Assembly (NCBI RefSeq): GCF_003386285.1
Contig: NZ_QPNC01000015.1
Location: forward strand, 62,001 to 126,000
Direction: 5' to 3'
Origin: Nocardiopsis sp. FIRDI 009
Lineage (GTDB): Bacteria; Actinomycetota; Actinomycetes; Streptosporangiales; Streptosporangiaceae
DNA length: 64,000 nt
Each line of letters begins with the position of its first letter. The first letter of the stretch is position 1. Shown here piece after piece: positions 25,355 to 27,907 of this stretch. Below the pieces are notes generated by a model, which worked only from the letters and a program-made list of their open reading frames with translations, had not been told where the DNA came from and made no database searches. The position numbers and the translations under genes are program-made.

Positions 25355-26038
25355 TCACTCCTGTGACGGCGCCTGCCCGCGAGTACGGGGCCGTTGCGTC
25401 AGATCGATGTCCAGATGACACGGGCCGCTGACCTTCAACCGGTCCCGATACACCCCGAGGAGCGAGTACCGATCGGTCAACCGGTCGAGTTCGTACACGT
25501 GCACCGCGAGCCCCCGCTCCTCCTGCTCCACCAACCAGAAGTGCGGGATGCCCGCCTCCGCATACAGGAGGGGCTTGCGCACGCGGTCTCTGATCTCGGA
25601 CTCGGGGGAGACCACCTCCACGACCAGTAGCACATCCTCCGCCGCGAACCACGTGTCGTCCAGATCTCGCAACGCGGACGCGCGCACCAGCATGAGGTCG
25701 GGCTCGGGTCGCTGACGTTTGCCGAGCACGGCGGTCATCTCGCGGCAGACGATGAGGTCCTCCGGCACCTGGGCGTCCATCTGCCGGTTCAGCAGCGTGA
25801 TGGCGAACATGTGGAAGAACTTCTGGGGGCTCACGAAGACCAGGTTCCCGTCAATGAGTTCGGTGTGACGCGGAAGATCCGGGATCCGGTCGAGGTCCTC
25901 GGCGGTGAACCCGTCCTGCGGAGGCATGGGGAGCAGCACCGCGCCGTCGAGTTCGGGATCCGGGCGCTCGACCACGGTTGGAACGGACATGTCGTCGCCT
26001 CCGGTCGTCGGATCGTTCTCGTCACCCACGGTAGCCAT
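25355..26038 (-). CDS. Uma2-family putative nuclease
   Basis: The protein of 227 residues (from ATG 26038) has the Uma2/DUF820 fold: HTELIDGNLVFVSP at the N-terminal side, then EPDLMLV, VVEVVSPESEIRDR and KPLLYAEAGIPHFWLVEQEE. The Asp of EPD and the Glu of VVEV are the expected PD-(D/E)XK-like residues. The biological role of the family is poorly known. GTG 26047 is an alternative start, but ATG 26038 has a GGGGTG ribosome-site-like sequence. Unlike the fragments at 18338-18632, this copy is full length. Confidence 0.85.
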   Translation of the reverse strand: MATVGDENDPTTGGDDMSVPTVVERPDPELDGAVLLPMPPQDGFTAEDLDRIPDLPRHTELIDGNLVFVSPQKFFHMFAITLLNRQMDAQVPEDLIVCREMTAVLGKRQRPEPDLMLVRASALRDLDDTWFAAEDVLLVVEVVSPESEIRDRVRKPLLYAEAGIPHFWLVEQEERGLAVHVYELDRLTDRYSLLGVYRDRLKVSGPCHLDIDLTQRPRTRGQAPSQE

Positions 26039-26217
26039 ATCCGTCACCCCGTAACGGTGTTTTCCTGAATCATCTCACCCGGACCCGGCGTCCGGCGTGC
26101 TCCTCGCCACACCGCCGTCCCACCCTCCGCGACGGAAGCCCCTGGACACAGGCGCTCCGGATGATCCCACCCAAGATTCATCCCAGGACACGTATGGAAT
26201 AAGTAAGGCTTTGGGGT

Positions 26218-26223
26218 TATTGT
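26218..26223 (+). promoter_or_regulatory. -10 element of a leaderless transcript
   Basis: TATTGT (pattern TANNNT) lies 8 bases before the GTG of the leader peptide at 26232. This spacing puts the transcription start at or near the start codon, as in actinobacterial leaderless mRNAs. No clear -35 element or ribosome site is visible, in line with that reading. Confidence 0.5.
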
Positions 26224-26231
26224 CCTTGGTC

Positions 26232-26306
26232 GTGACGAACATCTGGGGACTGACGCGACGGTGGCACATCGACCTGTGCCGCCGCGGCTGTCACGCGTGT
26301 AGCTAG
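26232..26306 (+). CDS. Cysteine-rich leader peptide upstream of the DAACS symporter
   Basis: GTG 26232 opens a 24-codon frame whose C-terminal part is RRWHIDLCRRGCHACS. This matches the actinobacterial putative leader peptide type (basic Arg pair, xxDLxR, then Cys residues near the stop). Such peptides sit upstream of sulfur-metabolism genes and, in mycobacteria, mediate cysteine-responsive attenuation (established for related leaderless uORFs; recalled, not checked). Three Cys codons lie within the last nine codons. The symporter starts 158 bases downstream. A longer frame from 26097 was rejected because its first part is not coding-like. Confidence 0.65.
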   Translation: MTNIWGLTRRWHIDLCRRGCHACS

Positions 26307-26464
26307 GTTCACGCGCGCCCGTCGAGGCGTGCGCCGCGCACCCGTCCCGTGTGTCACCTCTCCCTCTCGGTGATACCCCCTCCCTGCCCCGAAGCCGATC
26401 CGGCGGCTCCGACCGTGCCGTCGAACCCTCGGCCGTCCTCGCCACCCTTTCTGGAGTCATCTCC

Positions 26465-27907
26465 GTGTCCTCGCAGAGTGCCACCGCACGTTCGCGAAAC
26501 CCGTTCGTACGCATCCCCTTCTCCGTCCAGGTCCTGGCCGGTCTGGTCCTCGGCCTCGTCCTCGGTGTCGTCGCCCTCCAGCTCGGCACCACCGGCGACG
26601 GTGAGCCGAACTGGCTCGCCACCACCCTCCAGACCGTCGGCTCGATCTTCGTGACGCTCCTGCGCACGATCGTCCCGCCGCTGATCGTCCTCGCGGTCAT
26701 CTCCTCGATCGCCAACCTGCGCAACGTCGCGGGCGCCGCCCGGCTGGCCTGGAAGACGCTGCTGTGGTTCGCCGTCACCGCCCTGATCGCGGTCGCGATC
26801 GGCATCGGGCTCGGACTGGTCTTCCGCCCGGGCCTCAACAGCGGTGTGGACGCCTCGACCGCCGCCGAGCCCTCCACCCAGGGCTCCTGGATCGCCTTCA
26901 TCGAGAGCATCGTCCCGACCAACGTCCTCGGTCTGACCGCGAGCACCTCCGCGGCCGACGACGGCTCGCTGAGCACGTCGCTGTCGTTCAACGCCCTCCA
27001 GCTCATCGTGATCGCCGTGGTCCTCGGCGTCGCGGCGGTGAAGGTCGGCAAGTCCGCCGAGCCGTTCATCAACTTCACCGCCTCCGCCCTGGACGTCGTC
27101 CTCAAGGCGCTGTGGTGGGTCATCCGCCTCGCCCCGATCGGCACCGTCGGCCTGCTGGGCAACGCGGTCTACAGCTACGGCTGGACCACCATCGGCGCGC
27201 TCGGCAAGTTCTCCCTGGCCATCTACGTCGGCCTGGCGCTGGTGGTGTTCGTCGTCTACCCGGTGATCGCCCGCCTCAACGGCCTGTCCCCGGTCAAGTA
27301 CTTCACCGGCGTCTGGCCCGCCGTCCAGCTCGGCTTCGTCTCCCGCTCCTCGATGGGCACCCTGCCCGTCACCCAGCGGGTCGCCGAGCAGAACCTCGGC
27401 GTGCCGCGCCACTACTCCGCGTTCGCCGTCCCGTTCGGCGCCACCACCAAGATGGACGGCTGCGCCGCGATCTACCCGGCGATCTCGGCGATCTTCGTCG
27501 CCCAGTTCTTCCCCGAGGTCAGCCTGAGCCTGACCGACTACCTGCTGATCGTGTTCGTCTCGGTGATCGGCTCGGCCGCGACCGCGGGCACCACCGGCGC
27601 GACCGTGATGCTCACCCTGACCCTGTCCACGGTGGGCCTGCCCCTGGAGGGCGTCGGCCTGCTCCTGGCGGTCGACCCGATCCTGGACATGGGCCGCACC
27701 GCCACCAACGTGGCCGGTCAGGCGTTCGTCCCGGCGATCGTCGCCAAGCGCGAGGGCATCCTCGACATCGCCCGCTACCACGCCCCGCGCGGCGCCAGCG
27801 GCTTCGTCCCGCTGGACGAGGAGCCCGCCCAGCCGCTCAGGGTGGAGGACGACGACACCGACGCGGAGGCGGTCGGGCGGGAAACCGAACCCGCCGCCAA
27901 GGGCTGA
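26465..27907 (+). CDS. DAACS-family cation symporter, possible cystine transporter
   Basis: The 480-residue protein is a dicarboxylate/amino acid:cation symporter (GltP/TcyP family) with about 8-10 membrane segments. Visible family motifs are SSMGTLPVT (first hairpin), KMDGCAAIYPAISAIFVAQF, and GATVMLTLTLSTVGLPLEG with DPILDMGRTATNV near the substrate site. GTG 26465 follows CTGGAG at 8 bases. Family members take up glutamate, aspartate, C4-dicarboxylates or L-cystine. The cysteine-rich leader peptide just upstream makes cystine the most interesting candidate, but this is inference. The acidic C-terminal tail is cytoplasmic. Confidence 0.88.
   Translation: MSSQSATARSRNPFVRIPFSVQVLAGLVLGLVLGVVALQLGTTGDGEPNWLATTLQTVGSIFVTLLRTIVPPLIVLAVISSIANLRNVAGAARLAWKTLLWFAVTALIAVAIGIGLGLVFRPGLNSGVDASTAAEPSTQGSWIAFIESIVPTNVLGLTASTSAADDGSLSTSLSFNALQLIVIAVVLGVAAVKVGKSAEPFINFTASALDVVLKALWWVIRLAPIGTVGLLGNAVYSYGWTTIGALGKFSLAIYVGLALVVFVVYPVIARLNGLSPVKYFTGVWPAVQLGFVSRSSMGTLPVTQRVAEQNLGVPRHYSAFAVPFGATTKMDGCAAIYPAISAIFVAQFFPEVSLSLTDYLLIVFVSVIGSAATAGTTGATVMLTLTLSTVGLPLEGVGLLLAVDPILDMGRTATNVAGQAFVPAIVAKREGILDIARYHAPRGASGFVPLDEEPAQPLRVEDDDTDAEAVGRETEPAAKG

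Follow-up and report, generated by a model that had tools for sequence, protein, structure and literature searches.

We found, upstream of an SDF (DAACS) symporter gene of the soil actinobacterium Nocardiopsis sp. FIRDI 009, a 24-codon reading frame that is probably a cysteine-sensing leader: a ribosome stalled at its UGU codon 23 (UGU23) at low cysteine would permit expression of a symporter importing cystine or cysteine. A leaderless cysteine-sensing leader before a cystine-type importer had been proposed in the initial annotation, and this core claim is strengthened by the conservation of the peptide, its match to the NF042934 family, the sulfur genes that its relatives precede and the TcyP signatures of the symporter. 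We infer the stall, the direction of the cysteine response, the leaderless start and the substrate.

The leader peptide, its conservation and its family

The window, i.e. the whole 64-kb stretch of DNA that was analysed, belongs to a genome of 5.8 Mb in 60 contigs. On its + strand, the GTG at 26232-26234 opens a frame of 24 codons which ends at a TAG (26304-26306) and codes for MTNIWGLTRRWHIDLCRRGCHACS, with Cys codons at positions 16, 20 and 23; 158 nt separate this stop from the symporter gene (GTG 26465 to 27907). The assignment of 26232-26306 as a leader peptide ORF is based on the frame, the profile match, the conservation and the synonymous bias. The motif R..[IV]D[LFY].R.....C near a stop codon was matched once in the six frames of the window and never in 30 shuffles, so the leader is not a chance frame. 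It lies where the initial annotation had placed a 24-codon GTG frame ahead of the symporter. A Uma2-family gene (PF05685, putative endonuclease) is located on the minus strand at 25355-26047 of the window, divergent from the leader.

Eighty named relatives of the symporter were gathered for the upstream comparison, and the leader was present in all 16 Nocardiopsidaceae loci (L009-L022, L027, L031). The locus L013 (NYMS01000037.1), labelled Glycomyces fuscus, has a leader and an upstream region almost identical to those of Nocardiopsis alborubida, which suggests that this genome is mislabelled. The symporter was detected at E 1e-100 or better in 88 of the 201 genomes of the same GTDB family, and the leader was found in 58 of the 60 upstream regions read there; the same-family homologs at L136 (G060) and L152 (G196) showed no recognisable leader. 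Conservation of the peptide upstream of orthologous symporters, a check set beforehand, is therefore borne out. The leaders of the GTDB family fall into two classes, class 1 (34 leaders, the window counted) with the pattern VTN[IL]WGLTxR[RW]H[IV]DLCRxxSxAC and class 2 (25 leaders) resembling VRFSPVIVWLVERLHVDLCRLNSQLCR. A looser scan gave NLWGLTRRRALDFGRMTTAGC-like leaders in 12/12 Geodermatophilaceae and further leaders in Jiangella, Nakamurella, Luteimicrobium and Actinotalea, and none before Arthrobacter-type or pseudomonadotal symporter homologs. Dozens of related genera keep leader and symporter together. The conserved core of the window leader, R-W-H-I-D-L-C-R (codons 10-17, 26259-26282, + strand), may act in the exit tunnel. 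Six of its residues (R10, H12, D14, L15, C16 and R17) are invariant in 34/34 class-1 leaders despite variation in most of the codons for them, and the core diverged with pS of 0.36-0.51 versus pN of 0.03-0.06, the values for codons 10-17 being 0.36 and 0.06; the constraint therefore acts on the peptide. Outside the core, the sequence differs between the classes.

The initial annotation had noted a likeness to actinobacterial putative leader peptides, and this likeness was recovered with the profile of NCBIfam NF042934 (cis_reg_atten, "putative leader peptide"). The window leader scored 18.7 bits, below the curated cut-off of 27 bits, and the leader of the orthologous symporter in genome G056 scored 34.8 bits, above it. 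When positions are counted from the core His (H+n), the window leader carries the NF042934 core H/A-x-D-L-x-R and a Cys at H+11. Of 148 genomes from the class, 117 had members, and the 14 control genomes had none; at E 1e-6, a search across the wider phylum was too strict and missed even the members of the present genome. Three further leaders of this type exist in the genome, each before a sulfur gene named from its translation: MSAGELLVQRLHVDLRQQASALCRS precedes an FMN reductase-like gene, MIAALDPMLCVRRHVDFLRVRSAICCSVG a sulfite reductase and MTSLTSAFLTKRRAVDYCHVAAALCLCP a thiosulfate sulfurtransferase. Among 65 downstream proteins from the whole class, Pfam assigned DUF4395 to 16, rhodanese to 14, sulfite reductase to 11, cysteine dioxygenase to five, PAPS reductase to three, and APS kinase and SDF to one each. 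The five dioxygenases (type I) would be an odd target for activation at low cysteine. At L207 and L212-L215, NF042934 leaders (RLWRRVHMDLVRYAGCVCRPSC) precede short genes. The window leader adjoins on the same strand a gene with TcyP signatures, the symporter starting at 26465, which would itself be a sulfur-metabolism gene.

The UGU codon, the promoter and the spacer

The three Cys codons within the last nine codons of the leader, on which the initial annotation had relied, are present at 16, 20 and 23, but codon 20 is not conserved: counting the window, just 4 of the 34 class-1 leaders have Cys there. In the symporter leaders conservation is limited to Cys16 and Cys23, and the window leader has no run of consecutive Cys codons, so a significance of the three codons as such was rejected. 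The Cys23 codon (26298-26300, + strand), which is the proposed site of stalling and sensing, is invariant across the leaders surveyed in the family and the class. In the GTDB family, the Cys at H+11 is encoded by UGU in 59/59 symporter leaders and the Cys at H+4 by UGC in 56/59. A set of 68 class-wide NF042934 leaders was picked by protein score, a choice therefore blind to codons, and showed UGU at H+11 in 68/68 and UGC at H+4 in 32/34 and at H+9 in 26/33. Pooling both surveys gives UGU in 127/127 at H+11 and UGC in 88/93 at H+4; these counts are not independent since the leaders are related, and the other Cys positions within the same leaders serve as internal control. UGU makes up 6 of the 104 Cys codons in the genes of the window, about 94% being UGC; tRNA-Cys(GCA) decodes UGU by wobble. 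The bases before UGU vary with the gene class (GCG UGU, CUC UGU, AUC UGU), so that decoding explains the fixed codon better than a common RNA motif would. Sensing by Cys richness is unlikely, because the constant feature is one UGU at a fixed distance from the peptide core; the earlier proposal of sensing through Cys codons before a cystine-type importer is thus kept for the leader and its single UGU, but not for its Cys richness. The literature searched made no mention of the UGU rule at H+11.

Outside these surveys, five symporter leaders have no Cys codon at H+11, with UGA in L024, L028 and L082, UAG in L085 and UGG in L038. These leaders, from Geodermatophilaceae and Kineococcus, keep the core.

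The promoter of the leader is likely of the sigma-R (thiol-stress) type. A -35 element GGAAT (26196-26200) and a -10 region TATTGT (26218-26223), both on the + strand and at fixed distance from the GTG, form GGAAT-N18-ATTGT, the -10 distance being read across 34 leaders. In 32/34 class-1 leaders the distance from GGAA[T/A] to the GTG is exactly 36 nt, and where the window has GGAAT, GGAAA or GGAAC stands in eight close relatives. The Corynebacterium sigma-H consensus is GGAAT-N18-19-GTT and accepts any base at the fifth position (PMC10012870); the window promoter, GGAAT-N18-ATTGTC, is one base off it (ATT for GTT). The full GGAAT-N17-20-GTT was found in 16/25 class-2 leaders, ending 10-11 nt before the start. 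The sigR gene of this genome carries GGAAT-N18-GTTGTC, and RsrA is encoded as well. A sigma-70 promoter was rejected, the search having given no match. The -10 box that had been reported 8 bases ahead of the GTG is indeed there, as is the absence of a Shine-Dalgarno before GTG 26232, but the description as a plain -10 box had overlooked the conserved GGAAT at -36 and the sigma-R appearance. Because the distance from promoter to start is fixed, leaderless initiation is supported, and the start codon probably lies at or near the 5' end of the transcript.

The spacer at 26307-26452 (+ strand) is C-rich and G-poor, with a C/G ratio of 1.86 (21 other upstream regions of the window, 150 nt each, have 1.06 overall), and the ratio is 1.9-2.2 across the two leader classes; by this composition it is a possible Rho-binding region. 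No intrinsic terminator was found between leader and symporter, so attenuation by such a terminator was rejected, and Rfam families gave no credible match at 25900-26700. The Shine-Dalgarno of the symporter, GGAG (26453-26456), lies inside a hairpin GGAG-TCAT-CTCC (26453-26464, + strand) with a folding-derived pairing probability of 0.87; this local hairpin closes the ribosome site. When a stalled ribosome was imposed on the class-1 leaders, the mean unpaired probability of the symporter ribosome site went from 0.25 to 0.275. The energies of duplexes between leader and ribosome site were near shuffled values, and RNAalifold gave a weak link of 4 pairs after the leader stop, without covariation support. 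These three results gave no consistent sign that leader RNA hides the ribosome site, and this candidate was set aside; by homology with mycobacteria, relief of such masking by a stalled ribosome may occur. In most class-2 loci (L137-L162), a hairpin GCAUGCC-loop-GGCAUGC is located a few bases before the symporter Shine-Dalgarno.

The symporter, the proposed mechanism and its alternatives

The downstream gene had been called a DAACS symporter, which agrees with its match to PF00375 (330 bits, E 2.7e-98). The protein was compared with the four E. coli SDF proteins TcyP, GltP, DctA and SstT. The closest is TcyP (34% identity, 166 bits), with which it has in common an extra residue in xxDGCAxxYPA and the pattern V[DE]P.{2}DMGRTAxNV. 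Both signatures are absent from GltP, DctA, SstT and the single other SDF protein of the genome, which has canonical motifs. Since the TcyP signatures are present, uptake of cystine or cysteine by the symporter (26465-27907, + strand) is likely, and at the sequence level the earlier placement among importers of the cystine type holds. It might carry instead glutamate, aspartate, a dicarboxylate or an organosulfur acid, its control by cysteine then reflecting general amino-acid balance. In this direction point the retained DMGRT arginine, which serves acidic substrates, a BLAST score to GltP (159 bits) near that to TcyP, and an SDF tree whose branches are long and deep forks open, so that the symporter is unplaced and not separated from the other SDF groups; yet the TcyP-only signatures and the location in a sulfur regulon speak against it, and we regard this substrate range as unlikely. 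Import of cystine or cysteine would thus be the likeliest function from motifs and regulon taken together.

In the mechanism that we propose for the cysteine-sensing leader, the sigma-R-type promoter would yield a transcript starting at or next to GTG 26232, and the ribosome would begin directly on the leader. With plentiful cysteine it would complete the 24 codons and leave, and the downstream RNA would turn the symporter down. When charged Cys-tRNA is scarce, the ribosome would halt with UGU23 in the decoding site, the nascent chain RRxHxDLxR being then at a fixed depth of the exit tunnel and probably strengthening the halt. The halted ribosome would cover the region of the stop codon and allow expression of the symporter, which would bring in cystine or cysteine. 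For the output step, either Rho termination in the C-rich spacer would be prevented or the ribosome site of the symporter would be freed. Against this mechanism stand the folding, which lacks a leader-controlled release of the ribosome site, the lack of an intrinsic terminator, the five symporter leaders without a Cys codon at H+11, the five leaders before cysteine dioxygenase and the Arthrobacter-type and pseudomonadotal homologs, which no leader precedes.

The leader could also be a true arrest peptide, with the ribosome stopped at H+11 by the nascent chain itself and not through the charging state of Cys-tRNA; as in TnaC, a small effector (e.g. free cysteine or some thiol) would then set the arrest. 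TnaC carries a stop codon where it arrests, and some Geodermatophilaceae leaders likewise keep the core with UGA at H+11; moreover, conservation is stronger for the core and its distance to H+11 than for any number of Cys codons. The 127/127 UGU at H+11 points nevertheless to Cys decoding, and so do the long Cys runs of the mycobacterial relatives, so that we hold an effector-driven arrest to be improbable. If UGU were held constant by a need of the RNA, such as to pair or to bind a protein, with the peptide as a by-product, one would understand that H+11 is the only leader Cys codon with a fixed third base, and in Nocardiopsis the CGCGUG around UGU can pair with a CACGCG just after the stop. 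This is very improbable given that the flanking bases differ between gene classes, that the other core codons vary synonymously and that RNAalifold gives no supported pairing of the UGU codon. Hardly any weight is left for a functional small protein, e.g. one that binds thiols or metals and shares no more than its transcript with the symporter: conservation at the amino-acid level, including Cys, His and Asp, fits such a product, but one leader family precedes many unrelated sulfur genes, the sequence beyond the core differs between classes, and fixation of UGU at the codon level is not expected for it.

Within the preferred reading of a cysteine-sensing leader, the presence of UGU at one position in nearly all leaders suggests an arrest peptide that has a single Cys codon as its gate and in which RRxHxDLxR at a fixed tunnel depth would make the ribosome very sensitive to slow UGU decoding at H+11. 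We put forward tentatively, with somewhat more doubt than confidence, that actinobacterial cysteine leaders in general work as arrest peptides, with one wobble-read Cys codon as the gate, and not as counters of Cys codons, a single module copied before many sulfur genes forming a cysteine regulon, here with a sigma-R-type promoter. The UGU rule makes cysteine sensing with a single conserved Cys codon testable by codon swap and by recoding of the core. The symporter is a new target within a known kind of cysteine leader system, and the link to cysteine control gives a testable substrate for SDF symporters that are widespread in actinobacteria and functionally unassigned. The sigma-R-type promoter suggests that this importer answers to both thiol-oxidation stress and cysteine shortage; in S. 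coelicolor, thiol stress and cysteine synthesis are linked (PMC4340878).

Comparison with known systems

TcyP, the E. coli cystine/sulfocysteine:cation symporter, and the window symporter share the SDF family, the DGCAxxYPA insertion and V[DE]P.{2}DMGRTAxNV, but their identity is only 34% and the tree leaves clade membership open. To our knowledge, no such leader peptide occurs upstream of E. coli tcyP. With the sigma-R promoters of Streptomyces and the sigma-H promoters of Corynebacterium and Mycobacterium, the window has GGAAT-N18 in common, and it differs by ATT instead of GTT.

With NF042934 the window leader shares the core LTRRxHxDLxR, the UGU-coded Cys at H+11, the position of a short ORF before sulfur genes and the actinobacterial origin. 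Its target is different, being a symporter and not a sulfur-assimilation enzyme; among the 65 class-wide members whose downstream gene could be read, a single one is followed by an SDF symporter.

The prediction of cysteine leaders that lack a terminator dates from 2005 (PMC1262725). Mycobacteria have polycysteine leaderless short ORFs, which are reported to respond to cysteine (Canestrari 2020, through PMC9031893, PMC13236596 and PMC9094748), and the output published for them is that the stalled ribosome frees the downstream ribosome site. Mycobacterial NF042934 members (LTKRRAVDLCRVAGCCCCCC) carry long Cys runs, precede a sulfurtransferase and have their core in common with the window leader. 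Unlike the polycysteine attenuators, the window leader has no Cys run and only two conserved Cys codons, its promoter is of the sigma-R type and folding gave no leader-controlled masking of the ribosome site; common to both are the core (LTKRRAVDLCRVAG), the sulfur genes downstream and a start codon apparently at the end of the transcript.
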